A stretch of 64,000 bases of DNA from Lunularia cruciata (lineage: Eukaryota; Streptophyta; Marchantiopsida; Lunulariales; Lunulariaceae): NCBI GenBank assembly GCA_948567375.1, contig OX419759.1, positions 7,594,744 to 7,658,743 on the forward strand, read 5' to 3'. Below are positions 3,580 to 44,700 of this stretch, one piece after another. The position numbers were made by a program, and so were the translations under genes. The notes under the pieces were generated by a model. It saw nothing but the letters and a program-made list of their open reading frames with translations. It did no database searches and was not told the origin of the DNA. Position 1 is the stretch's first letter. Each line of letters begins with the position of its first letter.

Positions 3580-6500
3580 TAAGAGAAGTGGCTCCAACAA
3601 GAGGAATCTGGCCCCTATGGGACTATGCTAGAATAGACGGCACCTAGATCTATGTCCTAAATGCACAAAAAGGGTATGGAGCACTAGATGAGGAGTGTTG
3701 CCTATGATAATCCTTCTAGCCATTGATGCCAAGGAACAAAATACAGGCATCCTACGATAGAATACTAAAGAGACTCCCAACTACTAGGAGATATAATCCA
3801 ATACATGACTAGAAAAGTACATATCCAATAAGAAATTAACAAACCAATGCTTAAGAACAAACAACACATGTGAACAAAACAAGAAGAAAACTTCAAATTG
3901 GAGAAATTGAAAAATAAAAAATGGAGGAAGAAAGCCTATTTGCTCCTGAAGGAGAATCTCCATTCCGCAAGCTCCATCTTGTCTAGTACAAGAACCTCTA
4001 ACACAAGAAAAATTTGATGAAAGAACAGTTTGGTATAAGAACTTGATCTCCCCAATTCCGTAAATTTTCTCCCATAAAAAGTTTCCATGGCCTGATTGTT
4101 GCTCTAATGGCTATCATAGTACTTCTGTTTGGATCAAGAGTACTCAACATCAATCTAGAAAACATGAGAAGGGACCCTTTTGCCGCATCTATGATAAGTG
4201 TTTTCCTTTACCCACTTAACACTTGCCACCCTCTAATCTCAATTTCCGTTGCCCATGAGAACCTGAATTTGCCAAACCTGAGGACCTAGTTGCTTCTTGA
4301 GTTTTGAGGTGTCTCCATTGCCATCTTGAACAGCATTATAAATCCTCAACTAGAAAACCTTTTAATTCTCACCAGCCCATGCTCTAACCTAATAAGTTCA
4401 ATGTCCACTATCCAAGCAAGTTTCCATGTCTTGCCTATTCCAAACACTCCATATTTCTTGCTGTTTTTTCAGCACTCTACTAGTATCTAGTGCTGACTTC
4501 TGTCTCAATTTCTCACATGCCTTCATCATTTCTCACAAGCTTGATTTTTCACTCTTTCATTTCTCTTATGCTCTATTCATTCATCAAAAAGGACTCTAAT
4601 TAACTCCCATTCTACGTTGTACGCTGCTGAGGAATATATAGCTGTAAATCATGAAATTACCTTGTCTATAGCTGTATTGATCTGCAGATTGTAGTATGAA
4701 CTAATCCATATCCGTCTCAATTTCATATGTACTAACCGTATAATTCTATGAATGATGAGATATTGCAATAGCAAGATAGATACCTTATGGACATGGAGGC
4801 ATCATTTCTGTCCACATATGCGGCATCTACAATTGCGATAAAGGAACTCTACAGCATAACCTATGTAGATTTCTTGTCCACATTATAGAATAAGTTTGTC
4901 TCCAAATCACCTTCAACTATAATGCATTCACTTTTGCTTAGGTTTTTGTCAATTTGACTTCCTTACTTAGGGTTAATTCTTGTCTTAGATTATGCATTAT
5001 CTTATAATTTTTACTCTTGTCCATGATTAAGGTGTACCACCAAAAAAAAAAAATTTGTAAATCCAATTAATGCAAAAACACATTATGTCATGACAGTTTT
5101 CATTACTATATTCAATGCTTTATTTCAGTGTATTAATAAAATTCAAAAAATAACTTAATTAATATAATTGAAATACCAACCTTTTCCTATCTAGATTGTA
5201 CCATGTCCAAATCTCTCCACCAAAAGTTCAGAAATAAACTGCAGAATGTCCATAAATACAACCCCAAGAGTCCAAATTCAGTTTTCAAAAGACTACAACA
5301 AAACGAGCTGACTTGCCCGGCCCCTGACATAGCTCAGCGTGATGACAGAAGTAGAACTCCTGGTCATTCTAGTTTAACAAATATATTTATTTTTACACCA
5401 ATAAAAATTTGTATTGAACATCAAAGTAAATAGCCCTAATATTACACTATCCAACACCTCTATAAATCTGATGAAACTCATGGAATTTGTCATGTAATCC
5501 ATGGTAATTTTTATGATCACTACCGAATCAATATTGTATATGGTTTAATTTGATACTTTTTGAAAATATCATTATTAATGTTGTATATATAGTACAAGGG
5601 AACTTTGTCAATATTATGCTCAAGTCTTTAAAGCACATAATGCTCACAAAAGCTTACTTTTGTATGAAATGCACAAAGTAGTATGATTATGCTCTTGTCA
5701 ATACAAAATGATGGTATTTAAAAATATTAATAGTAAAAGAGATTTTATAAAATCCTCCATAAGCTATACACATGATATACCCTTCTTTTGACTTAAGCAT
5801 TGTTTGTAGACATCCAAAAAGTTTATAATGGCTTGCTAGCATTTCTTAGTCCAAGTTTCCTTTAGTACAGAAATCAGCAGTTTCTTTCATGGTGAACTCA
5901 ATATCTTTTTTCTTTATAGTTACTCTTGCACATGAAGTAGAAATTTAGCAAGCTGTTGCTAACTTTTGGGTTTTGTACATGTCTTTTTATGTTCTTGTTA
6001 TTTATCACTTTTTGACAAATTGCTTATTTTTTCAGATTCACCATTTGTTTCTAAGGAGGTTAATCTTCTATGTGATTGCTTTTTTGTTGGAGTTTGACAT
6101 CTAGACATCTCTTCCGTGTCATGTAATTGATGTTCTTGAAGGTACCTACACTGTGCTTATGGTTGCTTCTTTTGACAATACTTGTCCACTTCCATTCCCT
6201 TCTATGGGAATTAAACTTTGGGAACCTTTAGGAAGCTTTTGGTTCAAAGTTTAGAAAAATTTTCTTTTATCTACTCTCAACCTCTAGACCATCCATTGAC
6301 ATGGATATTATGTCACATTCCCAAAAGCTATTTCTCTTTATATTCCTAAACTTGAGTGTGTGCATGCCTATCACGTTACCTTGAAGTGGTTCCATGTTTA
6401 TTCAAGTTTGTTCTCCCTTTATATTGATCTTCTTAATTTATACTGTTGTTCCATGTTGCCAAGTGGTTTATATTTTTGCCTATGGATGGCTCTTGTGGTA

Positions 6501-9500
6501 ATCGGTTTTTAGTTGGGAAGGAGAAAATTATTGTAAGAGTTCGGAAATGTATATATGATACTGATCTCAACATAAAGATATTCTTACCTTCATTCTGAAT
6601 TCTCCTTTGCTCCTATGTTGGCTTTTGTTGTCCATTTGTAATAATAGTAATAATTGTCTTCTATATGTTGTTTATGATGTCTGGTCTAGGAATGATACGT
6701 CTTTCAATAATGGATCTCCTTCTAATTCTGTTGGCAATGTTGTACATGTCTTGGTTTTCTATCCAAGATTACTTATTGGCTCTCAAAGTAGTTTCTGGAG
6801 TTTGGTTCTTAAAATAACATGTGTAGTTCTCAAAGTGATAAAGGCTAGAATTCATTTGAGATGTTGGAGTAAGATGTGAGTTTAGGATTGAGATCAAGAA
6901 GTTTCCTTACAAACCTTATCAGGACTTCAACAAGAGTCATTCATTTTGAAAATTCTTGATAGCTTAGAGTGATATCAAAAGTTTTATCGTGTATGTGACA
7001 TTTAATAGAAAAAATTTGATCAGAGTGCTCAATTATGGATGTAGCTTCAATACAAGAATTAAAAAATATATATCTTGTGCATTAATTCTTTGTGGTGTTT
7101 CTGTCTAGATTCTTTTGTTCATATTCTCTATGTAAGTTTCTTAACATAAGTAACTTTTTCAATTTGGAGTTACTACAATTTTTTGAAGAGATTGAAACTC
7201 ATGTTGAAGGGTACTAAGAATAAGGAGAGGAAAGCTACCAAGTATATTATAGATCCATCAATCATGTCATCATTAATCCTTATTATCCAAGTGAGTGTTG
7301 TAAGAAAGGTAGTTGTGATAACATCAAAGAAACTTACAGTTTATATTGTAGCATGGATTTCAATGGCTAGACAAGTCACATATTTTCTCTTTTTGACGCT
7401 TGTATTGATGAGTAAGGTCAAATTTTCAAATAGTATTTTCTAAAACAACTACTTGTAAGTAGTATCTCTATGCTATTTGAGTTTTCTCTTATTATTAATA
7501 TTTTGTGCACCACAATGATTACATCTTAGGTGCCAAAGTTGGTTTCTATGGTATTAGTTAGTAGAGGAAACCATAGCTGCTAGATTAATAATTTTTTAGC
7601 TACCCTTCAGCTGGAATGAGGTTATACATAATGTTACTTATTATACCATAAGGTAGCAACTCATAGTTTATTTAATGATTATATTCTCATGAAAAAAAAC
7701 TATTTCAGGAGTTCATAACTAAGATAGAATGACACTTGTGCAAGGGATATCAAGATCAGAGTACTACTCTATATGAAAAGATTCTAGAAATTATAAACTT
7801 CACAAAAGAGTGCTTTTACAAAGTATAAGATAAACATTTTACTCAAGATGAAGCCTACACATGAGAGGACTCCAGATATTCATGCATAAATTTGGAGCAT
7901 GAAGTGCACTTGAAAGGTTAAATGTCTTGGACATAACATATTCTATGCAAGCAATGAACTTGCATGTGTTGTGCCTAGAAACAGGTTTCTAGCATCCAGA
8001 TATAGATGGCTATGATCTTGGTTGCTTTGTACATTTTGCTTTTGAATAGGTTATAGGCTGGTAACCCAAAATTATGAGCTCATTGATTAAGTGCTTCTCC
8101 AAACTTAAAATTTTGGTTATGGTCATTATTATGATCTTACTTTTGTGGTAGGCTTAAGTTTCATGCCCTTTTTGATGAAGAAATTTGTGAAAATATCTAT
8201 CTAAATACTCATGATGTGAGCATTGGTTCTATTTATTGTATACTTTGGTATGCAAATAAAGATGAAGTAGAGACAATGATGAACGAGTTTAATACTCTAC
8301 CTCAACATCTACTCATTCTATTGGATTACTTAGCAAAAGATAATAAAACTGGCTTTTTATGCTTTCAGGAATGAAGTCTTTGCTAGGGGCATTTTCCTTA
8401 CTATTAAAATACTTTCTTCATGGTTTGTCATGAGATGAATGATTGTTTGTTCTTCAAATATGTAGAGGTCTTATCAATAGGTATTCTTAGCTCTTATAAA
8501 TAGGGTATTCTTACCCTCATGCAACTCCTTGTTGAGATATTTAGTTGCATAGATAAAAGTAGCTCCTTTCATGCAAGCAATTCTTGATTACGGTCTTATG
8601 TCAATGATTATCTACTTAATATAATAGGTCACTCTACACACATAGCTTTTTACTTTTCTATATATATATACCTTAACATTCCAATCTTCCAAGTAAGAGA
8701 GAGTTACAATATGCATTGGTTACCTATAAAGTGCAGATATTTATGGAAGAGGAAGTATTTTAATTCCAAGATAGATGTTTTTTGTTTTCTTTTTCCTTTT
8801 GATGAGCATTTATAAAAAGTAATGGTTAATGTACAACCAGAATTTGTAAAAATTGTTGTTTGCCTTCAAGACTATGTGTAATATTTGATAGAGGTTACAG
8901 GTGACTCTAATGGATGTAACGGGGAAAGAGTGCATAGTTTGGAGGTAAACACTCCAAGAAATACTTGATATATTAAAGTATGCCAAAAGCTAGAGGATTT
9001 CTAGAGGTTTTTGGCCTAGAACAAAAGCATGAGATTGAGTAAAGAACATAGTAAGAATACAAGAGAACCTCCATGGTCTTAAGGGTCATAAAATAATTTT
9101 GCATATTTTGCACAAACTTGTTGAAGAACTGGAAAAACTCCATAAATTTTTTTGGTATATCAAAGGAACAATTATACCTTCATTTTGTGTTTTAAAGAAC
9201 ATTTTGTGTATGTTGTGGTATTAGAGGACAATGTACAAGGAATAATGCTCATAGTTTGGCCAAAAAACAGTTTCCCATGAAAATTGGTTTATGAGTCTGA
9301 AGAGCACATAGTTTAATCAATCATTTACAACAAATTCCTAGTGGAATGGTTGCATCCAATGCGCCATTCAACTAATGCTTCCTATATGAAGATATACACT
9401 TATTATATATAGAAAGAAGGTCAATTTCTAAGTAGACTAAAGGGAGATTCTTGTATATTCTTTCGGAAATATAGACCCAAACGTTTGTAGTAAGCATGTC

Positions 9501-9990
9501 TAAATACCCCAAGTGTCCTAACAAATAGCTCTAGATATCCTTGTCCAAGCCCAAGTAGAAGACACAAACATGCTCATCAACTTATAGTTTTTGTTAGATA
9601 TTTGAGTTGTATGAGACTTTTTGAATTGTTTAGGAATCTTCTTCTTTTTTTGCACTTATTTTGATATTTGAGAATTTTACGTTTTCATTTGGTAAGATAG
9701 AAATATTCATCTTCCCAATAAGATTTCCAATTTTTATTTTTTTACATTTATTTTGATATTTCTTATCTAGTGAAAACTATTTATTGAAATATGTATCTCA
9801 ATAAATTTAACACTAGAATGAATATAATAACATTTTAGTTTAAAAGTACCGGTAGTTATTGTAAAGTACAGTAACTACGTTAGCATGCAGTAGGACATCT
9901 TATTACAGCAACTATGTTATATGTAAAGGTGACCACCATAGCCCGTCTAATTAATTTTGGTTGATTGAGCGGTCATATTCATGTTCCACC
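3580..9990. other. AT-rich intergenic stretch, no gene recognised
   Basis: About 6.4 kb with only short ORFs (under 95 codons) on both strands and many poly-A/T runs. An ATG at 3921 opens a short frame (MEEESLFAPEGESPFRK) that closes soon after. A hydrophobic frame follows at 4107-4289. Neither resembles a family I know. The composition suggests heavily decayed transposon sequence, but I could not name any element. Confidence 0.5.
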
Positions 9991-10029
9991 ATTAAACTCG
10001 TGCGTCTGCCGTCACACGAACAACACTAG

Positions 10030-10305
10030 GTTCGTCTTCAATTTGAAGCGTCCTTGAAGCTCATCTTTCGAATTCGGCCATCCCACCAACAACTGTAGGT
10101 TCGTCCTCAGTTCGAAGCTCCCTTGAAGTTCATCTTTCGAATTCGGCTATCCCACCAATCAGTCTAAGTTAGTCTTCAGTTCGAAACTCCCTTAAAGTTC
10201 ATCTTTCGAATTGGGCCATCCCGCCAACAACTTTGGGGTCGTCTTCACTTCGAAGCTCCCTTGAAGTTCATCTTTCGAATTCCGTCATCGCACATTCGAA
10301 CCCTT
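10030..10305. repeat. Tandem array, four 69-bp units
   Basis: Units begin at 10030, 10099, 10168 and 10237 with an exact 69-bp period. Each reads roughly as GTTCGTC, a TTCAGTTCGAAGC-like block, CCTTGAAGTTCATC, TTTCGAATTC, then a CCATCCCACCAAC-like block. Every unit carries TTCGAA or a one-base variant. The array has more CpG than the AT-rich DNA to its left. It runs straight into the longer-period array on its right. Confidence 0.9.
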
Positions 10306-10975
10306 AGCAGGGCTTCGAACCTGGGTTCGTCTATCCACTTAAATATCACGTTAGTGATGGGCTCATCTCACCTTCGAGTTTTGTTTCGAATCTAACTCTC
10401 ATGCTTCCGTCTTCTGAGACTCGACATCCCACTTTCGAACCTATAGCTGGGCTTCGAAACTAAGTTTATCATTGCGACCCTGAAATGACGTTCGTGATGG
10501 GCCCATCTCATCTTCGAGTTTAGTTTCGAATCAAGCTTCATGCTTCCATCTTCGACATTCGGCGTACCAACTTCGAACCTAACGCTAGGCTTCGAAACTG
10601 GGTTCGTCATCCGACTTTGCAATTCGTTTAGTGACGGGGCCATCTCACCTTCGTGTTAGTTTCGAATCTAGCTTCATGCTTCCGTGTTTGACATTCGTCA
10701 TCCCACCTTCGAACGTATAGCTAGGATTCGGAAGCGGGTTTGTCAATCCGACTTTGCAATTACATTCGCGCGCCCATTTCACCTTTGTGCTAGTTTCGAA
10801 TCTAGCTTCATGCTTCCGTCTTTCACATTCGCCATCTCAACTTCGAACCTACAGCTAGGATTCGAAACTAGATTCGTCTATCCGAGGTGAAATTGCGATC
10901 GTGATCTCACCTTCGAGTTTACTTTCGAATCTAGCTTCACGCTTTCGTCTTTAACATTCTATTTCTTCGTCATTT
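10306..10975. repeat. Tandem array, five units of about 135 bp rich in TTCGAA
   Basis: The landmark CATCTCACC and its variants lie near 10364, 10504, 10641, 10774 and 10902, spacings of about 140, 137, 133 and 128 bp. Each unit includes GTTTCGAATCTAGC, CATGCTTCCGTCTT, ACATTCG, CACCTTCGAACCTA and GGCTTCGAAAC blocks. The period is close to twice 69 bp and both tiers share TTCGAA-centred words, so the long unit may be a dimer of the short one. Period drift and indels argue that the array is not protein coding. It ends about 350 bp before the ATG of the next ORF. Confidence 0.88.
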
Positions 10976-11326
10976 CGCATTTTGGTGATAATATGATAAC
11001 ATTACATGCAGCTCCCGTCACAGTAGTACTCAATGTTTTACGTCCTTGAGTCGAACGTGTACATGTCGAATTGAGTTGCTGTATGAAGATCTGTATCTTA
11101 GATGCAGACTATCAAGAATGGTCTTCTTAACTGAATCGGCCTTCCGAATGTGAAGACCAAAAGGAGGTGGATCGGCTGTACAAGGTACCATCAAGCAGGA
11201 AATCTCCCCACAAAGATAACTTCCATTTTGGGACGCAGGAGCAAGAGAGAAGATCGGTACCTGTAAGTGAATTCCCTGGAAGAAGGATTGAGTCACAAGG
11301 TTCGAACTTCTCGACAACAAAAGAAG

Positions 11327-12040
11327 ATGAGCTCGAGTGGAGTCCCTGAAACTGCTGGAATAAGGCCTCCAACGAGAAAGCCCAGATCGAAATCCAGACG
11401 CAAAATCAAAAGCAAAACCGAATGGCCTCCAGGACCTGAACCTCTCCTACACTCTGAGGAAGATCTCCAGCTCGGCCAAACATCAGAGGTTATGAATCTT
11501 GAATTTGGATGCACTTCAGACGTTGTTAGCAGATTTCCTCTTCCCGTTACCGTTGCTAATCTCATGCTCGGTGATGCTTCCGAAGTTGTCCAGCTACAAG
11601 AAGTCTCACGAGAGGAGCAGAGAGTTGTCCAGCTGCAAGAAGTCTCAAGAGATATGCAGCGCAGAGTTGTCCAGCTGCAAGAAATCTCAAGGGAGAAGGA
11701 GCGCAAAGTTATCCAGCTGCAAGAAGCTGCAAGAGAGAAGGAGCGCAGAGTTATCCAGCTGCAAGCCTCAAGAGAAGACGAACACAGACAAAAACGTAGG
11801 TTCAGATTGGCATGGCCTAAGCGCTCATATTCTTTTCCATTCTCCGATAAAGAGCTCAAGCTTTCCAAGACAGAAGAGGTTGAGGCACTCTACGAGTCCA
11901 TATGGAAGAGGGAGGCAGCACCAGCAGCAGATTCGGCTCTAGGGGAGCGAATCAAACAAGATGACCATGCTCAAGTTTTCATGGAAGAGGCACTTGCTAA
12001 ACTTGACATATCAAAGTGGAAGGGCAAAGGCAAGGTTTAA
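11327..12040 (+). CDS. Unrecognised 237-residue protein with a 13-14-residue coiled-coil repeat
   Basis: This is a single open frame from the ATG at 11327 (MSSSGVPETAGIRPP) to the stop at 12040. I chose this ATG because upstream in-frame codons offer only non-ATG starts. The N-terminus is basic and proline/arginine rich (TRKPRSKSRRKIKSK). The middle has five copies of VVQLQEVSRExxRR, predicted to form one amphipathic helix or coiled coil. The C-terminus (RFRLAWPKRSYSF, then ELKLSKTEEVEALYESIW, then MEEALAKLDISKWKGKGKV) is lysine rich and looks folded and non-random. I know no family with this layout, so function is not assigned. A GTAAGT donor at about 11253, in another frame ending in ERRSVP, allows an upstream exon, which I cannot prove. 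The 950-bp TTCGAA array sits immediately upstream and may act as promoter or heterochromatin. Confidence 0.55.
   Translation: MSSSGVPETAGIRPPTRKPRSKSRRKIKSKTEWPPGPEPLLHSEEDLQLGQTSEVMNLEFGCTSDVVSRFPLPVTVANLMLGDASEVVQLQEVSREEQRVVQLQEVSRDMQRRVVQLQEISREKERKVIQLQEAAREKERRVIQLQASREDEHRQKRRFRLAWPKRSYSFPFSDKELKLSKTEEVEALYESIWKREAAPAADSALGERIKQDDHAQVFMEEALAKLDISKWKGKGKV
11584..11790 (+). repeat. Five in-frame units of 39-42 bp inside the coiled-coil ORF
   Basis: Units start at 11584, 11623, 11665, 11707 and 11749. The first spacing is 39 bp and the others 42 bp. Each opens AGTTGTCCAGCTGCAAGAA or a close variant. Keeping multiples of three across all units supports selection for the reading frame. The encoded unit is VVQLQEVSRE plus a charged QRR or KER tail. 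Confidence 0.9.
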
Positions 12041-12298
12041 GCTTAAGGAGGGGTCTATTGTAATACACCTCATCCCCAGTAATCGTGCTATCAAAGGGAA
12101 CTTCCAAGAGTCCAGAAACTTACCTGCCCATATGCATATATTCGCAATCGAGGCAAGAATGCATGATTTAGCTTGCGGGTGAATTGTGGCTCGGTACAAC
12201 TACCAGAGAAGGAAACGGTACTTCCGGATCGATGAAAGCAACTGAGGCTTTTATATAATGGGTATATAGAGAGATAGCTTACTCAAAGGAAGCTTATT
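12041..12298. other. Presumed 3' flank of the coiled-coil ORF
   Basis: No recognisable gene. The sequence just past the stop is GC-moderate and then falls into AT-rich DNA with TATATA runs. It probably holds the 3' UTR of the ORF that ends at 12040, but no clear AATAAA signal decides an end. Confidence 0.35.
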
Positions 12299-12500
12299 GG
12301 CACGACATTTTGTTCTTGGACATTCCAATCATTTCTAAACGCAGGATGTTCCATACAGAGGTAATATAGACATAGCTTGGTTCACTTCGAGTCTCCATTG
12401 GCACACATTTTGTTTTTTGGCATTCCGATCATTTCCACACGCTGGATATTCCATACAAAGATAATATAGACATAGCCGGGTTAACTTAGATTCTCCATTC
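12299..12500. repeat. Two tandem units of about 101 bp
   Basis: GGCACGACATTTTGTT at 12299 recurs as GGCACACATTTTGTTT near 12400. The following sequence (CATTCC-ATCATTTC, ACGC-GGAT-TTCCATACA, TAATATAGACATAGC, CTCCATT) is repeated in the same order. The two copies differ at perhaps one base in six. Confidence 0.8.
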
Positions 12501-12540
12501 CTGGTTGTGAAACACTTTTGTTGCTACCACAACAGCATTT

Positions 12541-13696
12541 TGTGGCAGGAGGACAGTTCCAGATGTCCCATATGCAGTAGTATTCTATATTTGTGCTAAA
12601 GAAACTCCCTTCCTCCCGGACATTTGATTTCTGAGATTTTGTCACAAAGATTCTAAGTCATAACTAATACGAATTGAAAAATGAAAGATGAAGTTACTAA
12701 GGCTCACCAAAGAATGGTCTGAGGAACACAAGTCGTGCTATATATATAGGAAGAGAAAAGTATACAACTATGTGTAGTCTCTCTTCACCATAGATTTCAA
12801 ATGGTGATTAAAGATCAAAATTTCCTGCGCTCACTAGACGCTAGGAATATTAGCTTGTGATATTTATCAACACTCTCCCTCGCGCTAACGTCAATATCTT
12901 TGATGTCTATATGAGATCTAAAGTATTGAAAGTTATCTCTAACTAAAAGTTTGGTGAAAATATCAGAATTGCTGATCTAAAAGAATGTACTATATATCTA
13001 TTTCTCCAAACAATACCTTCTCTCTAATAAAATTATAATGAATATGTTTGGTTCTAGATGAAATACTGGATTGCTAGCATCACGACAAGTTTAATAATGT
13101 TGATGTTAAACAGCGTATTGTGGTATGATGACAGTTCTGATGTCCCAAATGCAGTAATTTTATGTATTTGTGACTAAAGAAACTCCCTTCCTCCTGGACA
13201 TTTGACTTCTAAACTTTGGTTATAAAAACTAGTAGCCGTAATTATTACGAATTGAAAAATGAGAAATGGAGATACCAAAGTTCACCAAAGAATGGTCTGT
13301 GGTACACAAGTCCTGCTCCAATATATATAGTAAGAGAAAAGAATGCAAAGTATATATTGACTCTCTCTGAACCATTGATTTGAAATGGTGACTAAAGATT
13401 AAAATTTAGTGCTTACAATAGCTGCTAGGAATATTAGCTTGTGATATTTTTTTCAAGTTAACGACAATATCTTTGATGCATAGATTAAATCTACAATATT
13501 GAAATTCATCTCTAGCTAAAGCTTTGGTGAAAATATCCAAATCTTGCTGATCTGTAGGAATATACTGCACATCGATTTCTCCGTACAATACTTCTCTCTA
13601 ATAAAATGACAATGAACTTGAATACGTTTGTGTGCGTCTGGATGAAATATTGGATTCCTAACAAGTTAAATACTATTGATATTATCTGAATATAAG
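12541..13696. repeat. 578-bp tandem duplication spanning flank and LTR
   Basis: GAAACTCCCTTCCTCC occurs at 12601 and 13179, and TACGAATTGAAAAATGA at 12668 and 13246. Both pairs give a spacing of exactly 578 bp. The similarity runs from about 12541 to 13118 against 13119 to 13696. Each copy holds flanking DNA, one Copia LTR and the adjoining end of the element's RNase H region. The left copy is therefore a duplicate of the element's end and not a separate insertion. Confidence 0.8.
13243..13450 (-). repeat. 3' LTR of the 13.2-18.4 kb Copia fossil
   Basis: Matches the segment at 18165-18367 and, through the tandem duplication, 12665-12872. Shared landmarks in plus orientation are CACCAAAGAATGGT, a TATATATA run, a TCTCT-rich block, AAATGGTGACTAAAGAT and GGAATATTAGCTTG. 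Confidence 0.8.
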
Positions 13697-16600
13697 ATTA
13701 AAGGATTATGAAATGCATATCACATGTCTAGTAATAAGGTATGAAGCCAAATTGATTCACAAGAAGCATTAGTGGCATACTTATATTCTGCTTGGGTTGA
13801 TGATAAAGCATAACCTGATCTCTATCTTTGAGTCTGCTAGTGGATCATTTTGTAGAACAGATAACCCACTAGCTGAATAGTGACGATCAAATTGAATGGT
13901 GAACTTTGTATAACATACTATCCTTCAAATTGTATCAAGACTTGGTTTCCATGGTACTTTTCAAATTGACTCACTAGTCCAAGAGCATAGCTTAGGTCTG
14001 GTCTAGTAACAATCAAATAAATTGAACTTCCAACAATCTGTCTGAATATGTTTGATAAGCTCACCATCTTTGGCACTTTACTTGACAGAAGTTGGGAGAG
14101 GAGTAGAAATAGGTTCTCTAAACATACTAAACTTCTCCAACATATTGAGAGAACATTGACATTGTAATAATCAAAGGTCATTGCCATCTTGAAAAAACTC
14201 AATACACGAGAAGTATTTGAGTTCTCCTAAGTCTTCATATTGAACTGATTTTGTACTTGTTGAATGAGATCTGGATAGCTATTGGTGATCATCAAGCCAT
14301 CAATATAGATATTAATAAAACCATGTTATCACTAGCTTGTAGTCTATACAGCAAAAAAAAACTGAATTGCATACTCAAAATCCAATGGGTAAAAGATAAG
14401 AATTGAACTTGGCATTCCAAGCTCATGGAGCTTGCTTAAGTCCATATAGTGACTTTTGCAATAAAAAAATTTCTTTATATATCTTGGATTTTCATATCAA
14501 GGTGGTTGGATCATCCAGATCTACTTCTCCAAATCTTCATTAAGGAAATAGTTAAAGTCCATTTGATAGAGCTTGCACTTATTTAAAGTGGCCAATGTTG
14601 AGAGAGTATAAATCAATGGCATCTTGGAAACAAGGCTAAACAAGCTCTTATTTAAAGTGGCCAATGTTGAGAGAGTATAAATCAATGGCATCTTGGAAAC
14701 AAGGCTAAATGTGTTATCAAAATCAATTCCATATTGCTGTGAATAGCTCTTTGCTATAAGTCTTGCCTTGTATCTACTCATAGAATTATCAAAATTTCTC
14801 TTGATCTGAAAAATACACATGCAAAGAATTATCTTCTTGTTGAGAGGTAAATCCACCAAGTCTTATGTAGTGTAATTTGATCCATCAACACTTATGTAGT
14901 TTGATGTATTGTTGCAACTTCAAAATCCATGCTTTATCTTAATCTGCATCATGGATTGCTTCCTCAAGAGAATTTGGTTGTTGTTCTTGGATAACCTTTA
15001 TCATATATGCATGTTGTTGGGCTAAAAACCCTTCAACTTTAAAACATCAAACTGGATATTTGACCTAGGGATTGGTTGTGGCATAGTTTCAGGTTGACAA
15101 GTACTACTTTCAACCTCATTTAAAAGGAGTGGAATTTCTGAATTACATGGTTAATAATAACCATTTTTTCTAACAAAGAATTAGAAATATTAGTGGATAA
15201 ATTGCAGAGTACATCTTACATGGGCTAAGAGACTTGGAATGAAGCTTCTCAACAGCCTCCCTTGACCAAATATTTTTAAATAGATGAGAAAAAAGTGCTC
15301 ACTAGAAACACTGGTGGCAATTGAAGTACTAGCCTGTGGAACAAAAATACTACTTGGACCAATCAAATGGATAGAGGGTGCCATAAGTGGTAAATCAGAT
15401 GTGCAAATTGTACGAGCCTGATACCAAGAAATTTTAACTCCTCAAAAAGATACTTACCAACCATTAATAGTATGGGTGCTGCTGTGCCACAAAGCACAAC
15501 CAAAAATATAAGGAAACATACAAAGTTATGTAGTTGGACCATCTGCTCTATCCCTTTTGCTTATTTTGCTTCTCCAGATCAAAGAGTGTATTCTCTCATG
15601 TTTGTTCCTCCTTTTAAAGAATGTGTATAAAAAACGCATATGTTTGAGGTCCAAAGGTCTAGACCAATGGGAGAGGAATGTATTACTTGAAATGAAGTTA
15701 GCTCCTTTTCTATCTGGCCTGATCCAATGCAAAGGGGCTTGATCTGGATAAAGAAAGTTGCAAAAGGTAGCTTTCTTTATTTAGGCTTTCTTCTTGCTAC
15801 TTAATCCCCACACAACACATTTACATCTTGCTTTAACACATACTTACATATAGATACTATTCCAACCCTTGTGAAACCAATATAACATTGTTGGACTTCA
15901 AATCAAGGAACTTACTTCTTATTGCTTTTGTTGTTGTTTTATGACTTGCACCTTCATTCTTCACCTCTTTACTGATAATAAAATATTAAAAACACCAATA
16001 TTATTTTGGATTAGAGGCATATCCAAGAAAACATACTTTTGTGCTTTAGGATCTAACTCTTTTTTTCTTATCATCATGAAAATGAACAAAGCAAATGCAA
16101 CCAAAAACCTTCTAATTTCATAAATCAGGTTTCTTACATGTCTTACATGTAAGAGGTTAAAAAGGTGTAAATTTATGTAGGAGATTGGTCCATCAAGTTA
16201 ATGGCACAATTAGCCACTTGTGTCCAATAGCACTTGGGTATTGCCTTCTCATTGAGCATAGCTTTTGCAAATTTTGCAATATGTCAATTATTTTGCTCAA
16301 CAAATCCATTTTATTGAGGTTTGTGGCTGCAAATGAATTCATGCTTGATACATTGCTTGCATAGAAAATCATCAAAATGATTTGAAAGAAACTCTCATCC
16401 TCCATCAAATCATAGTCATAAGATATTATGACCATATTGCTTCTACACAAGTAGCTTGATATTTGGAAAGCAAAAAGGACATTTGATTACACTTTAAAAA
16501 TGTAGAACCACATATATCTTGAAACATCATCAATAAATGAGACAAAATATTTAGAATTTGTCAAAATCTTTTCTGAAACTGTCTCCACATTTGTGTGGAT

Positions 16601-18164
16601 CAATTCAAGCTCCTTGGAATCCCTTGTACTATGATGTTTAATAAGTATCTAGATTGCTTACTAAATTGGAAAGCCTCACCAACCCTACAAGCAAAGGATC
16701 AAAAAATATTGGAAGACCCATAGCTAAATCTGAAGTAGGTAACACTTTCAATATTTGTAGGTTCATGTGACCCACTCTTTTAAACTATATTTTCAAGATC
16801 TAAAATTATATTTGAGTCATGAATAAACACATCATTTTGATATGGAGTAGTGGGGATCTTGATATCTTTGACATGGATAGCACATTTCTCATACTTTTCA
16901 ACAAACACACCATCTTAGTTAAATATAACTTGAAAACCCTAAACTAAGTTCTTGGTGATTGTAGGCACAAAGGACTTCTTTTAAAACCACTAGAATTCCC
17001 TGATGGAGATTAAAATGAGATAGTACACATACGAGTAATAGCATGTTTAATGTCATCACTTGTATTTACAAAAAAAATCCAAATCATGGTTCTTTAAAAC
17101 TAAATATACTACTTTGATGAGTCATGTGGTTTGAGCACCCAAAAGTTGATGAACCAATCTACTTCACTCTTGGTCATCAATGCAAACATAGGAATCATAA
17201 TTAGTAGATGATTTTTAAGGTAACAATCCTTCTCCATATAGTGCTGTTAAGGGAGTTTACACATTCAAATATCAGCTTGCTTAACTAAAAGAAATGTTCT
17301 CATGATGAGTTTTTGATTTAAGATAAGTGCAAAACCTTTGCATAGTGGAATTTTTTATGTCATGTAATAGCTTTGTGAGGATTGACCTCTACTAATGCCA
17401 ACTCCATGAAGTGAACTTCCACTTCTCTGCCTCTTGCTCAACCTCTCCCAGCAAACAACACCCAATCTTGAGCAAAAATACCGTTGCCACCACCTTGCAA
17501 CCGCATTTCTTCATAGACTAATATTCGGATTAGCTTGTCAAATAGAGGATAAGTATTTTTGAGTGCTACAGATATCTCAAAAAATTTACACTCCTTTGTT
17601 AGACCTTTAACTATATTAAGAATTAGATCATCATCTTCAATGTTAACTCCGATGCTATTGCTTTTCAGCCAAACCACAAACGTGATAGATATAATTGGTG
17701 ATGCTTAAATTTTTTTGCTTAACCTCCATTAATTGCTGTATCACTTGAAGTTTTCTTTCCTTTATCAACATTTGAAATAAAATTCCAATACATCCAAAAC
17801 CACCTTGAAATTATCAACGCCTTGTATATCACCAAACAGTGATGATGAAACACACAAAGAAAGATAGTGCAAGGCTTAGTTAGCACATTTCTTCCAAGCG
17901 CAAATATCAAAATCTGAAGGAGCAACTGCCAGACAAGTTTCAACTCCTGTGACGAGATCTTGGACTTTAGAGAAGGCAGACATTATATATTTCCATAGTG
18001 AATAACTATTCATTGTCAAGACCTCAGCCTTGATGCCACCACAAGTATAAGTGTTGAGATTAGTACCATAGTATGAAGCGATAAAATCAGATCACTAGAC
18101 CATCTCACTGATTTGAACTCAAAGGTTTTCACAGTTTTCACAATCTCTCTTCTGCTCTGATACT

Positions 18165-18367
18165 ATATTACGAAGTGGAAAAATGAAAAGTGTAGATCTC
18201 AAAATACACCAAAGAATGGTATGCGGAGTATATATATATATGAGAAAAAAGTATACAAGTGCGTCGAGTCTCTCTTCACCGTTGATCTGAAATGGTGACT
18301 AAAGATTAAACTTCTGCGCAAACACTAGCCGCAAGGAATATTATTAGCTTGGAATACTCTATCAACA
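18165..18367 (-). repeat. 5' LTR of the 13.2-18.4 kb Copia fossil
   Basis: About 203 bp. On the minus strand it opens TGTTGATAGAGT and closes just before the sequence AGTATCAGAGC, which matches the primer site typical of plant Copia elements. Confidence 0.8.
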
Positions 18368-20349
18368 CTCTCCCTCAATATGAACTAAATAGTCATGAAA
18401 ATTCAGTCAGACCGACTCATGAATTCCAAAGTAGTCATAGAAGCATTCAGTCTAAATTCCAAAGTATACAGTCATATGCACATAGTCGTGGGAAACCTAT
18501 CTCGTCCGATAGGATAGTATTAGTCACTGGGAACTTGTCATGCGCTTATCACGGATGACGAATGATTTTATACGGATTAGATAATCCATATTTAAAACAT
18601 CGCACATAAGAAAGACAACGCGTGTTCTTATCATGTTTCCTGTATTTGAGTAGCTTGTAGTTTGTATACACAGGTACGATGATTTGAAGTCACTTCGAAT
18701 CAACACAGCAACACGGCGTTTATGATAGTGACAGATGGAATGCACTTTGGTAGTTAAAAACAGGCCATCTTGAATGCGTTTATAAGGATACAAGGCAAAC
18801 ATCTTCGTGAATTGTTGTCTGCAGCCGATGGAAAGCTAAAGTAAGGATCGCCTACAGAGGAGGCGTCGCCCGGCGAGTGAAGACAGTCTGCACCTTCTCC
18901 AAGTTCGTAATCAGAAACGTAAGTTCGTAGCAGTATTGTACCTAACTTAATCTCATGATCATGATTGATATCGGAAGCAGATAACGGGAGTGTAAGTGAG
19001 CGCATAAAGATTGAGCAAGTGCAAAGCTTTAGGTGCTCGCCTGATAGCAACCCAGTGTGCAAATCTCAAAGCACACAACAGAGTATTTAAAGTAGTAATC
19101 CCACATTCGGATGTATCCTTCATCAAAACCAAGTGCTCTGATTGCACTGCATACCCACAGGCCCGTGGAGACAGATACTTACTTCCACGATTCGTATCCA
19201 GGAACCCAGCACAAATTTCCATGCGAGAGGCTACAACAAGATGCTGGAGTTACCTTCTGTGGGCTTAAAAGTTCCTTCTCCAGGCCACCACTGACCGCTG
19301 TGGTGAGGTCCGATACTATCATCCTACCCCACGCTACAGAAACGGACGATCAAGCACGTTAATGTTATCAAATTACTCATTGGCAAACAAAAGAATACTG
19401 TTATATGGGAACCAGAAGCCAAAGATCCAGAACACACGCAACATGCATATGTGCACATGGAGATTCTGATTTGCAAAACAGCTGTGCAATTACTATTTGG
19501 CCATGGAGGAAGCTCAGATTGCTTACTCCATGGCCAAGAGCTCAAGGGAAAGCAATTAGAGTGGAAAAAAATGTGTACCTCGATATGCAGTCGAGTACCA
19601 GATCCCATTAAAAGAAAGAAGTCTTGGTGGTGAAGTTCTAGAAGATCGTAATTGTGACTCCAAACATGAATCGAATAACTATAGCCTGTGAAAGAAAGTA
19701 GATGGTGAAGCCAAGCCTGTTAATCGCAACAATCCTGCTCAATTTGCATGTTACGAAAATTAACCAATAGAAAACCATACTTGTCATATCCCATACTTGC
19801 TGCATCTGTATAACTACCACCATTCTGCTTTAACCCAGTAGCCTCTAGAAAAAATAGGATTGTCATCACCCAATCCATAATTCAATCAATTATTCTACGA
19901 AGAAGCCCTTTTGAGTCACCTTACCTACAGCGTGATCAAATGCAGCAAAAGGTGTGTATAACACCATTTTCCTGACAAATCCGAGAAGATTCCATATGCT
20001 TTCATTGTAGTGTATGTTATGCATTTCAATTTTGGTGGTCAGGGATAATGCTCAAATAATGTTTCCGTCGTTTCAATTATCTTATTGGACTTTGGAAGAT
20101 ACTTTGACTGACTCTTGTATCCATTCCTCGAATAATAGCACAAATCATTCAACATTTTTAGTCTCCCATTTCAGGAGTGCATAATAATATATATGGTAAT
20201 CAGATGCACAATAACAACAAAACTACTACAATCTTATAAATGATACAAAATTTAAAGCATAGGTTGGTTAAAACATACCTCATCCAAGGTTGCAAGCATT
20301 GCATGTTCATCTACACATAATTGAGAGCTAAGTTGCGGATCAACGGTGT
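18368..20349. other. Intergenic stretch, no gene recognised
   Basis: GC rises over about 18.5-19.6 kb, and several overlapping ORFs of 80-100 codons exist on both strands. The minus frame at 18754-19062 (with SDYELGEGADCLHS and DPYFSFPSAADNN) looks more protein-like than its neighbours and could be an exon. I could not match it to a family or chain it to other exons. Confidence 0.35.
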
Positions 20350-38700: not shown

Positions 38701-41700
38701 ATAGGTAGCGAAGCAAACACTCTAGCTAACTTGTACCTGCAGACGTGCATAATCTGTACCAACGTCTCGCAGATGCATACAGTATAATTATCTTTTCAGG
38801 ACTCAAGCTCAGGGTATACCGTTGATCCTAAGCTCGGCGAATGCTGGCCAGTGCATTCGAAATGGGACTTTGTCATTGAGCAGAACACACCACACCTGAA
38901 CCAAGAGGATATGTTGTCAGTTGATACGTCCATTAACAACAAAATTCTCTTGAAAGAGATAACAAGCAAAATACCAGCCGTTCTTCATACGGTGAGCTGC
39001 ACAGAAGCTTTGACTTGACAAATTACAGAATATGTAGCCCGTTGCAGCGTTGACTTGACAATCCTTACTATCTCTGACCCACGTTTTGCGACGGGGCTTC
39101 ATGCATTGACCAACACTCTTCCCACGCGAAAGTTCTCTCAGAAGAAGTCATGAGCAGAAACCATCTTTTACACGGGTAAGATGCATAAGCGTTGACTTGG
39201 CCTTTTTACTATCTTTGCCCCTGCGAAGGGGCTTCGTGCATTGATCAAGCGACTTCCCATGTGCTTCTGTAGCGTAGAAGCACATTGAGTGATGCTATAT
39301 GACTTGTAGACCGGGTGTTGGTGTTTGAGCACACGATTTTGTCACGCACACTAGACACTAAATCTACACTAAGGTCCAAAAGATCCAATCTAGAAACAAC
39401 TAACCTGCAGGTCGTGATTGGGTCTGCTATAAATATCACGCTCAAGCGCAGACACCTGAAACGTCTTCTCCACATTTTGCATCGGGTTTTGTCTGAGAGT
39501 AACAAGACAAAAGGTGCAGTAAGTATGGATCAGTTGCAATGACATGAGTCGCTCAATTCCAAAACAACCCCTACAGAGGTATGATATCTTAGACTAGCCA
39601 TAAATTACACCTGACTGCCTACTTTAACTTAGCATAACATTCCGTTACACAATATATTTAACATGGATGCCAGTCACTCGCCACTCTCTTGACAAGATAT
39701 TCTGATGGTATTCCGACTCTAAAATCATGGTGTAATACAGAGGATATCGGATATCGGATATCTATGTACTAAGCTTGAATGTGGGCAAAGTTTTACAATG
39801 AGCTCTACAAAGAGTAATCCATGGATACCAACCTATCTAGGAAATACATGTCAATCTTACTATGAGCTCTACAACGAATGATCCATGGATGCCAGCCAAT
39901 CTTGGAAATACAGGCCAATCATACTATGAGCTCTACCACGAGTAACCCATGGATACCAACCAATCTAGAAAACACAAGTTTTATCGTAATGTCACAAAAG
40001 GAGCGTTAACAGTCCATCTCCATAGTCAAATAGTCAAATCAAACAGGTGATAGTTCACAAGTATGCAGTCAGACCAGGATATGCGTCTCCAAATGAGTAT
40101 GCAGTCAGAACCAGGATAGATTTCCAGATGCGCGTCCGTCTCTAAATTGCCCGTCTCTAAATTGACCCACTACCCTAAATAACATCCAATATTTAAGTGA
40201 CACTTGCCTTTGACACAAGCCTAGACAATTAATGGATGCCGGTCCAATTCCAGTTAATTGAAAAAGTTCCATCCTCAACAAGGACCCAAATGCCTTGCTT
40301 CTTTGGATGCTAGTCTGTCTCTGTAGTTTAGCTTCAGCTACATTTTGTGGTACGTCTCTAGAAAACGTAATCTCAGTATTGGTTAACAATTCGATACCAC
40401 TATCCAGTTATTATGCAATGGCCAACTGAATAATAACTGCATGATTACGATCTTAAGATAACAATCCCAACAAATTTTCTCGTCGTAAGATAACGATCTC
40501 TATCAAGACCATGCATGCAGTTAAAGACTAGACCATGAATATCCAGATGCCCGTCTATCTCTAAATGGCACCACTGCACTAAGTATACTGCAAAACGTAG
40601 TATACTTTCAGCCCATACTCGCGGAAGCTGGTCAAACTCAGAATACTTGATACCAGTAACTATCCACTCTCTCTCTTTCAGCACATGTTCCAAATAGTGA
40701 TCTGTCCCAACAAATCCAGTAACTCTCTGAGCACATGGTGCTAATATTGGTCCATCTCAACAAATCGTCATGTGTATACCCTACATCTATTGAAGCCAGT
40801 CATTCCCCACTATCTTTCTGATGATGGTCCATCTCCACTCTCTTTGAGATATCCAGATACCCGTCTGTCTCTAGATGACACCACTGCACTAAGTATACTG
40901 CAAAACTTAGTAGAGTTTGTTATGAACCCATACATGCGAATGCCGGTCAAACTCAAACTACTTGATACCAGTAACTCTCCACTCTCAGCACATGTTCCTA
41001 AAAATGATCCGTCCCAACAAATCCAGTAACTCTCCACTCTCTCTGAGAACAGGCTCCCAATAGTGATCCGTCCCATCAAATCCAGTACCTCTCCATTCTC
41101 TCTGACCACAGGTTCCTCATAGTGGTCCGTCCCAACAGATCCAGTAATTCTCCACTCACTTTGAGGTAAAACTCCTTTGAGGACAAACTGAAATTACTTG
41201 ATAACAATAACTCTCCACTCTCTGAACACATGTTCCTAATAGTGGTCCGTCCTAACAAATCGTCATGTCAATACACTAAATCCATTGAAGCCAGTGATTC
41301 CCTACTATCTTTCTGATAATGATCGGTCCCAAGAAATTGTAGTAAAGTACATTGGTTACCGATACCGGTCCAGTCTACTAAATACCAGAAAATGTCTATA
41401 TTAAATGTACATATAGATCCGTATCCAGTCATTCACTACATTCCCTATGAAGAGATGATTATCTAGAGGTATCAACACCAAACTGCCAAAATAAAATCGT
41501 ATGACGGGTAATGTAGTGAGTGCGTACCCTTCGTTTCTGGTACCAGTGGTACTCAGTTTTGTTGCAATCAAAGGATTTGATATGGTCGAACAAAATCTGC
41601 AAAAGCGATCAAGTCTTTTCAGGATCTTGAGAATACATATTGGTGATGAATGTTGGACCGTAAATTAGGACACGGTTCCATACCTCTATTAAAACTAGTG

Positions 41701-44700
41701 AAGAAGACATGACATAGTGATCTAGATATGAGCGGTAAATTCCTCATCTTCATAAATATCTGAGTATGAAACAATACAAACTGCGCGATAATTATTCCAT
41801 TCTTTAGGCGAGCAGACGACCCCACCAAACCACAACCTAAACAAAACACGTTAAAACCAGTGTACTTACGGATCACTGCGGTTGACGCGGCATAATTCGC
41901 AGTAAAAAGAATTTGGAACTTCGGGCTCAGCCTTTTCGTCCGCTTTTTCAGGTATTACCACACAATTGATATGTTGCCAAACTCCACACTTGCTGTCGTC
42001 ACACTGCTTGCATGACGTAACAAGCCATCGCACCATAATTAGCGCAAAGTCCATATTAACTATATATCCCTTCCGCAAAACATGTTCAAGATCAAGATCA
42101 CTTCTCCAGATTAAGGACGGTGAAAAGGCAATTCACAACATGATCAAATAGTTGCGAAGTGCCGGCTAGTCAGTCAAACCTGAATCATTGTACCCTGGTC
42201 TCTAGAATTGCCACATGGACATCGTGTTTTAGCTTCTCCCCAGACGGCAGCTTCATCCGGCTCTTCTGATCGTGCAATACTACTTGATCCTCCTGCACCT
42301 AGGTCCTTCTTTGCGTTGGATGCCAAGTCAGGGGCGCCTGGGCCCCTGAGCTTTCTGTAGACAAACAAGGTGAATATTTCAGAAACAAAAGTACAAAGTT
42401 ATTCAACCAACTCGCAACGTCAAAAGAAACAACAAAGAAAACAATCGTCGAGGGCGTTTCGTATTTGAAATACAAAGCCCGTTCAAGAGTTGTACGTTAG
42501 CACAAAAGTATAAAAGTATATGCTTCTTTAAAATGTCATGAAAGAGTAGGTACGGATCCCCACAGGGAGCGTTCAAGTAATACCAAATAGCAGAACCGAA
42601 ACTGTGCATTTGCATAAAACCGGTGTTATATAGCCCAACTGCGAGCCAAAACCTTATTACTGACCAACATTGAGATGAAAATTTGATTTCAGCCAGAAAT
42701 GTCTCGACATCTTTTCATGGCAGATGTTCCAGAACCATAAATGGGCATGTTGATCAAACAACACAACTGGCAAGCAAGACCTAACTAAACATAACAGGAC
42801 ATCTTTCCACACATTACAATGAAAATAAGGGGTCCAAAGGGTTAATGCAGGACTTCCGGAGCAGGCATAAGATGTTTTAATACCTTTGTTTCCAGATTTG
42901 GAGGAACAGTAATCTAGAGATACAGAGATAGAAAAGTTGTTGATCGAAACTCACCAGGCAAAAGGGGGAAGAGTCATTCAGGAGGTAATAAAAGGCAAAG
43001 AGGCATTACAAGTTGTACTTTTAAGTTCCAGCAATCAGACAGCATTCTATTCCTAGTGGATCAAAAGCAAAAGCAATCTGCAGAAACAAGCTGACTTCTT
43101 TGCAGGAACGAAAGAATTCAAGATCTGACAACTACGCGTGTAGTGAATACAGAGAGAAAAGATTGACTATCATACTCATCTTCTATAATCACCAGAATGC
43201 ATGACCGCTAAATAACAAAGGCAGGTCCTGAATTTTTTTAAGGTATACAATCAACAGGTGAGATACCTGCTACAAACAGAAGGAAACTGCGTGAACCTAG
43301 TGACCATGTATTACCAGTGAAGACACTGTGGAGGCTCATGTACTAATCCCAAATCATGTTTGGGCTACTTGCTGAACGTAACGTAAGGCCTGAGTAAACA
43401 ATGAGTACATAATACGTTCAAGGTTGAGAGCTTTATAAGACGGTGGCAAATCTCATGAACCGAAGTGATTAGACAAACCTGTAGATGTCGTCAATAACAT
43501 TGATGCACTCCTCTCTACTCAACCCATTCTTGTTGGCTCCTCGACCTAGACCTGAAAGTCAACCGTTAAGCCAGGGTAAGACTGGGAACACCTGATTTCG
43601 ACAGTAGGTAGGACCTCAGTACATGCATGCAATATTTTTGTCTTAGCATTCATATGTTATCCCCAATAAAGGGTACGTACCCTCAATATGAGTTAACTAC
43701 CCTGACCGCTAATCACTGCAGTATGCACTGATATTTCTTAACTTCTTATCCCGTCAGCTCGGGGTTCCAGACAGGATAAGACTAGAGTACATTTACCCTT
43801 AAATTTTCTAGTACCAAAGCCCAAGAGTTCCATCTGTTTCCCTACTACACGGATCAGGTCCGGTCGCTGTAGTGTCTTTAGAAACTGCCCAGCTAATGAA
43901 TGTGATAGACGAGAATGCATGTTTGTCGTAAGAAAAAGACGAGAAGTTCCAATCTCTTCTGAGTTGCGTGCCCGGACGACGGTCAGTGATGCATCTACAG
44001 TAATGGATGATTGACGTTCTCAAATCTGCATTCACCCTCAATCCCATTTCTGACGACTCCCAACCATCTAGTGATGGAGGCTATTACAAGCTCCCCAGTA
44101 AGGATTCTGCCTCAGCAATGTTGGGTCATAATACGTGAACCGTCTTTACTGGTCATGAGGAGGGAGGAGATGTAGAGAATTATTGACTCTTGTAAGTGAT
44201 ATCCAAACTGAAAGGATCCCAACAAGAGGCATCAGCACGGCTGCCTTACATGACAAAGTACTTACTTTTGAGAGCTACAGCTGGTCTCTCTGCAGGTACA
44301 AGAACTCCCATTATCTTGTCCATAAGAACCTGTACGGACAGCGCCAGCAATTTAAGTGAGTTCTCCTACACTTCAAAACATAGACGACTGTGTTTACACC
44401 CAACAGAAATTATCAACCAGGAAAGTACACGTTTTATATACCATGATCGGAACAGGTGAGTTATAATCCTGACTACACCTCCATAAAATACAAGTGTAGA
44501 TCGAAGGTGTGAACACTTAAGGAGAAGCGGCGTAACCTGTTTCTTGCCCTGCTTCGGAAGGCCAAGGCGTGTAAGTACATCTTTCAGTTCCCTGATTCGG
44601 AAGGAAGCCAATTGTTGCTGCAAAACATATCAAATCCTCAAAGTGTCAAAGTGGAAATTATCTGAAAAGCACACAATTTGTTGAAAGATACTCGTGAAAG

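Follow-up and report, generated by a model that had tools for sequence, protein, structure and literature searches.

An old single-locus TTCGAA minisatellite in the 5′ flank of an orphan open reading frame of Lunularia cruciata, a candidate cluster of palindromic binding sites

An old minisatellite, found at a single locus, occupies the 5′ flank of an orphan, single-copy open reading frame (ORF) of Lunularia cruciata. The array lies in the window that we analysed (the whole 64,000-nucleotide stretch of DNA, located on contig 8 of the assembly), and although its copies have drifted, they retain conserved blocks of the palindromic word TTCGAA, which is a new observation here. Our preferred reading, to which we assign a probability of roughly 0.45, is that this old minisatellite is a candidate homotypic cluster of a palindromic binding site in an unmethylated 5′ flank. 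A neutral minisatellite follows close behind and is nearly as likely. The array is unusual, but it is not a new kind of thing, and our literature search returned precedents only.

Two tiers of repeats built on TTCGAA

The array starts with a short tier of four 69-bp monomers (type S; 10008-10290, forward strand), located by Tandem Repeats Finder (TRF), monomer alignment, and motif positions. These run directly into a long tier of five units (10291-10970, forward strand), each a probable dimer of halves A and B, located by MAFFT alignment, dimer tests, and motif positions. Together they span ~960 bp at one locus, next to a small ORF. TRF reported periods of 69 bp (4.1 copies, 10008-10293, 81% matches), 134 bp (4.5 copies, 10359-10959, 77% matches), and 270 bp (2.1 copies, 10314-10885). 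The long units, which were delimited at the conserved TTCGAACC and aligned with MAFFT, measure 139, 138, 136, 134, and 133 bp. Both TRF and the cutting of units (133-139 bp) therefore bear out the first-pass annotation, which had described four 69-bp units followed by five of about 135 bp. That annotation placed the start of the array at 10030; the array is real, but the position is ~22 bp late relative to the TRF start of 10008. Similarly, the ORF that it put "immediately" downstream is present at 11327, yet begins ~360 bp beyond the end of the array.

Each type S unit has two TTCGAA positions, seven of the eight in the short tier being intact, and each long unit has three, with 14 of 15 intact, giving 21 intact sites out of 23 in the array as a whole. 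The 21 copies in 10008-10975 far exceed what 1,000 dinucleotide shuffles produced (0.98 on average, never more than 6), which agrees with the earlier claim that both tiers are built on this word. The rest of the 64-kb window contains nine copies (30 in the window overall).

In half A, two TTCGAA words surround a 4-base centre and form a near-palindrome. The first of the five (10294-10320, unstranded) reads TTCGAACC..., the 4-base centre, and ...GGcTTCGAA, and the others lie near 10433, 10571, 10707, and 10841. When each copy was folded with RNAfold, four of the five formed the palindrome, with 10 or 11 base pairs in the arms and a single bulge, and the fourth copy carried a mismatch; in the first copy, the arm bases differ yet still pair. 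An RNA gene was ruled out, since the array has neither a tRNA nor an Rfam match.

A single copy between transposon remnants

We searched a genome of 566 Mb in 74 contigs. In this search, which skips very common words, the only match to the whole array was its own locus. The last 268 bp of the array likewise matched only there (E up to 10), as did a 34-bp word from the short unit and a 28-bp word from the long unit with three mismatches allowed. The palindrome pattern, also with 3 mismatches, picked up all but one of the five array copies and, elsewhere, three weak matches, all on contig 7. No other copies of the ORF or of the block 10971-12530 were found in the genome, nor were other copies of the array with terminal repeats. 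The array thus shows neither the long arrays nor the many loci of a satellite, and we rejected a dispersed satellite because the array and its unit words match their own locus only and the contig 7 palindrome matches are weak. Apart from those three places, the earlier description of a single array, as opposed to a pericentromeric satellite, holds.

The rarity of the array was judged from the window, from pattern searches of the genome, and from ten sampled stretches. Three closely spaced TTCGAA on one strand occur at 112 places in the genome; among the 50 of these that were listed, we read 40 as a 46-bp unit of no relation to ours, which leaves nine besides the array itself. Seven other TTCGAA cluster loci, whose clusters mostly lie in windows with an observed/expected (o/e) CpG ratio near or above 1, include none of comparable array size and motif density. 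The 46-bp TTCGAA unit is found on contigs 1, 2, 6, 7, and 8 (among the places listed) and is a dispersed family. In stretch L032 (G000:C1:1058500-1068400), it forms one of three adjoining arrays (3981-5590) with units of 90, 46, and 81 bp, which also show longer periods (183 for the 46-bp array; 161 and 242 for the 81-bp array). The 46-bp array measured there is CpG-poor (o/e 0.26-0.32), and the family, with higher-order periods of its own, is apparently unrelated to our array. Contig 74 carries full-length PsaA and PsaB frames and looks like plastid DNA; the nearest PDB chain to its PsaB is 9lut, which suggests a bryophyte, most probably a liverwort. Within the window, TRF returned 20 rows, some of them overlapping, and tandem duplications of many periods are common.

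The array belongs to a single-copy block of ~2.5 kb (10008-12530) that lies between CpG-depleted transposon remnants. On the left (8501-9651, unstranded) are pieces of old, CpG-depleted dispersed repeats with 68-76% identity to 16 other places. On the right is a decayed Ty1-copia element (12531-18376, reverse strand), recognized by an RVT_2 match within 14524-14862 (E 2.5e-11) and by self-matches (12531-13108 / 13109-13684 / 18166-18376), from which we infer its outer limits of 12531 and 18376. One end of the element shows a 577-bp tandem duplication (12531-13108 and 13109-13684, 77%), possibly two LTRs in tandem, and a third related piece is located at 18166-18376.

Given remnants on both sides, the array and the ORF could be the repeat region and extra ORF of a transposable element that has been reduced to one copy. 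Arrays inside LTR-retrotransposons are described as a source of plant satellites (PMC7004042), and a dispersed 46-bp TTCGAA array exists elsewhere in the genome. Nonetheless, we consider this explanation improbable: no further copy of the array, the ORF, or 10971-12530 was found; the CpG o/e of the block is 0.5-1.5, compared with 0.14-0.42 in the flanking repeats; the ORF is without a Pfam match; and the 46-bp unit, CpG-poor in L032, shows no evident sequence relationship to ours. Our array resembles the satellites treated in that source in being a short array in a transposon-rich setting, but it differs from them in that no second copy was found, no element was recognized around it, and CpG is not depleted.

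The long unit as a probable, and old, dimer

We regard each long unit as a probable dimer of two diverged monomers of the ~69-bp type. We compared consensus sequences by local alignment, with shuffles in which TTCG words stay intact as the reference. Between the short consensus and half B, the alignment extended along nearly the full monomer (score 23, shuffle mean 11.6, maximum 22.5; p<0.0002 with 5,000 shuffles), and half A aligned with half B (p=0.0008); the alignment of the short unit with half A was weak (p=0.038). An earlier version of the test produced the same ordering, with short versus half A not significant (p 0.33 and 0.42, word-keeping shuffles). Reversed and reverse-complement controls were not significant, as expected. 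Several results weigh against the dimer. Taken singly, three of the five B halves passed p<0.01, and the other two gave 0.076 and 0.195. Under stricter scoring, the whole long tier reached 28 compared with a shuffle maximum of 29 and a mean of 19 (500 shuffles), and no individual long unit rose above its shuffle maximum. Profile searches with nhmmer found no A or B match to the S model at E≤10, and the A model picked up three B halves at E values no better than 1.6-9.1. The top A match of the B model was on the opposite strand (E 0.044), barely ahead of an unrelated place at 26659 (E 0.075). The first-pass annotation had staked its dimer on both halves aligning with the 69-bp unit. The part concerning half B stands, and the halves also align with each other, but half A aligns with the short unit only weakly (p=0.04), and the profile HMMs do not bring out the links convincingly.

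Mean identity within types is 0.83 for S-S (6 pairs), 0.82 for B-B (10 pairs), and 0.73 for A-A (10 pairs), and between types it is 0.48 for A-B (25 pairs), 0.47 for A-S (20 pairs), and 0.46 for B-S (20 pairs). In a FastTree tree, the three types form separate groups; local support is 0.94 for the S group, 0.92 for the B group, and 0.73 for the split between S+B and A. As in a higher-order repeat, like halves in successive units (A-A, B-B) are far more similar than A is to B; the homology of the constituent monomers is accepted with reserve, given the S-A value and the nhmmer results.

The long units are 66-81% alike, the short units 80-86%, and the monomer types 46-48%, and therefore dimerization and amplification are old. 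These same values led us to reject a recent higher-order repeat "caught in the making", as the array had first been described. If the dimer holds, the monomers would have diverged first, and the A+B pair would have been amplified later, long ago. In the history that we propose, a ~69-bp monomer probably gave rise to three diverged types, of which S multiplied on its own as a monomer and A and B together as a dimer, making a small higher-order repeat. Dimeric higher-order repeats of the alpha-satellite type likewise consist of two diverged monomers that were amplified together, but they occur in thousands of near-identical copies at centromeres; the array here amounts to ~14 monomers at one place by a gene, with long units that are only 66-81% alike.

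CpG content points to long protection from methylation

The CpG o/e ratio is 1.41 for the whole array (1.24 in the short tier, 1.49 in the long tier), compared with 0.25 in 8000-10000, so that the high CpG content noted on first inspection is confirmed. Along the left flank, the ratio is 0.14 at 5-9 kb, with 0.42 over the final kilobase, and in the copia element on the right it is 0.23. Within the single-copy block, the excess is restricted to the array, the values being 0.80 for the leader, 0.53 for the ORF, and 0.66 for the 3′ part. TpG o/e is 0.66 in the long tier and 0.47 in the short tier, and CpA o/e is 1.04 and 1.22, respectively. Transitions at CpG cells are not in excess (6/100 versus 15/208 at other C/G cells in the long units; 1/32 versus 9/96 in the short units); consensus columns favour conserved CpGs, so that these counts lean towards "no decay", whereas the low TpG is independent of the consensus.

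Either recent origin or protection from methylation had been offered as the reason for the high CpG content. We favour long protection over recent origin because CpG shows no decay even though the long units are 19-34% apart, and we infer that the array was unmethylated throughout its history.

That pattern bears on a quite different role, in which the array would silence by supplying siRNAs to RNA-directed DNA methylation, in the manner of maize b1 or pl1. Tandem repeats beside plant genes are capable of this: the b1 hepta-repeat (853-bp units) and the pl1 penta-repeat (2092-bp units, with identical copies) are described as tied to paramutation, with siRNAs at pl1 (PMC11166354). Like those described repeats, ours is a single-locus tandem array near a plant gene and not a satellite, and a transcript of it would fold better than shuffled sequence (z -4.2 for the forward strand and -2.7 for the reverse strand, 20 shuffles each). 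Its units, however, are 69 and ~136 bp, diverged, and without CpG decay. Lasting CG methylation should leave a CpG deficit and a TpG excess, and we saw the opposite (CpG o/e 1.24-1.49, TpG o/e 0.47-0.66), which, as indirect evidence, makes a silencing array very unlikely.

The TTCGAA word is kept while the copies drift

In the long unit, TTCGAA columns diverge by 0.011 compared with 0.156 elsewhere (p=0.0002), and in the short unit by 0.021 compared with 0.108 (p=0.05). TTCGAA was picked post hoc for its recurrence among five and four units, which is partly corrected by circularly shifting the divergence vector and choosing the best word again; this test gave p=0.0003 for 6-mers, 0.002 for 5-mers, and 0.010 for 4-mers. 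With that partial correction, the array has the recurrent word, better conserved than its surroundings, that characterizes a homotypic cluster. In the long unit, variation at CpGs is 0.186 outside TTCGAA and 0.0 inside it; in the short unit, the two values are 0.188 and 0.062. Protection of CpG alone is therefore no explanation, and it is the word itself that is kept.

Outside the array, TTCGAA occurs at expectation (22 versus 22.5 expected) in ~135 kb comprising the window without the array and nine of the ten sampled stretches (L032 was left out, 2.5 kb around the TTCGAA cluster was removed from seven stretches, and ~5.9 kb was counted twice because L033 and L034 overlap the window). The idea that TTCGAA is a general promoter word of this genome is thus unsupported.

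We propose that unequal exchange would supply the copies and that selection would hold the palindromic TTCGAA sites, two per short unit and three per long unit (21/23 intact), in an array that has presumably remained unmethylated over its history. The sites would be putative targets of a sequence-specific protein that may regulate the ORF or keep its 5′ flank open. The closest competitor is a neutral minisatellite, in which both tiers arose by slippage and unequal crossing-over within a gene flank free of methylation, and the conservation of TTCGAA is due to chance, alignment anchoring, or an accident of homogenization. We regard this as quite possible, as the many TRF rows of the window show how common such duplications are, and the ORF seems unconstrained within its own repeats. 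What speaks against it is that divergence within the long unit is ~14-fold lower in TTCGAA than outside it, an excess of conservation that persists in the ascertainment-corrected shift test, and that the word is also present at S and A positions where B has a different word.

Candidate binding proteins

If the array is a cluster of binding sites, the four binding codes that we checked do not fit it well. LIN54, which binds the CHR element, is described as recognizing TTYRAA and as binding it best when Y is T or R is A, giving an A-T pair at the centre (PMC4974476). The array contains 21 TTCGAA, 1 TTTGAA, 0 TTTAAA, and 0 TTCAAA. We therefore rejected CHR/LIN54/TCX, since TTCGAA fits TTYRAA but as a non-optimal combination. 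NIGT1/GARP proteins are described as binding GAATATTC or GATTC-N38-GAATC (PMC7660924). In the array we found no GAATATTC and no GATTC-N-GAATC at spacings of 30-46, and the site was rejected, although its half sites are denser here than elsewhere in the window (GAATC, 5 versus 0.74 per 968 bp, all five in half B; GATTC, 3 versus 1.03 per 968 bp). The heat-shock element, TTCNNGAA or GAANNTTC, was ruled out, as the array has no copy of either form.

The fourth code is the Pol III B box, GGTTCGANNCC, which has TTCGAA at its core. The array could accordingly be a TFIIIC-type boundary that insulates the gene from methylated transposons, and it does lie between CpG-depleted repeats and a CpG-richer block. 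Matches to at least 7 of the 9 fixed bases occur at 26 places, compared with a mean of 13.4 in word-keeping shuffles, none of 300 reaching 26, although tandem copies inflate this count. At least 8 of 9 bases match at 4 places (mean 2.0; reached by 16% of shuffles), and all 9 at 1 place (mean 0.11; reached by 10%), neither being significant. With no tRNA or Rfam match in addition, we consider such a boundary highly improbable.

A bolder form of the binding-site reading is that a bryophyte-lineage protein specific for palindromic TTCGAA uses the amplified array as a strong, methylation-proof promoter or boundary, which we think unlikely. At this same locus, unequal exchange would then build a small non-centromeric higher-order repeat, which selection on a 6-bp word containing CpG would preserve.

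Precedent for repeat units that carry one transcription-factor motif many times comes from human IFNB1-MRE, described as a tandem-repeat enhancer with 45 PU.1 sites (PMC13373173). In that description, both the factor and the enhancer activity were shown, whereas for our array both would be putative. If the binding-site reading is true, tandem amplification, higher-order structure, and selection on one word would be separable at one satellite-free locus. If it is false, the array is an ordinary old minisatellite whose CpG content would record a long unmethylated history beside CpG-depleted transposons.

The downstream ORF and other features of the window

Between the array and the ORF is a single-copy region (10971-11326, forward strand; CpG o/e 0.80) with 8 upstream ATGs, the presumed promoter or leader. 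The ORF itself (11327-12040, forward strand) is single-copy and has 237 codons from the first ATG, a length that no ORF attained when the region was shuffled 500 times (maximum 169). It encodes a coiled coil of 13-14-residue (~42-bp) repeats, the 42-bp repeats being located at 11584-11765. Pairs of the five repeats differ at 17 synonymous and 44 non-synonymous codons (8 and 26 among the first four repeats), and differences by codon position number 30, 17, and 27, with no third-position bias. There is no sign of purifying selection within these repeats, and the target of regulation is therefore itself uncertain. The protein has no Pfam or NCBIfam match. A search of PDB sequences yielded 9 matches with E≤1 (the best being 0.046), and we regard them as coiled-coil or chance matches. 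A single-sequence AlphaFold2 model is dominated by a long helix at residues 84-162, accompanied by three shorter helices (mean pLDDT 67). The ORF may be a young or lineage-specific gene, or no gene. Behind it, within the single-copy block, is a 100-bp unit repeated twice (12296-12499, forward strand).

Further from the array, tandem units of 64 bp (CpG o/e 0.29) and 59 bp (0.34) cluster at 39793-41324, together with larger duplications. At 41869-42132 (reverse strand) is a frame with a sub-threshold PHD-finger match (E 0.00032), which may resemble the PHD of plant SIZ1 SUMO ligases. The region 53000-55000 is very AT-rich (19-23% GC) and has short AT-rich tandem repeats at 53747 and 54218.
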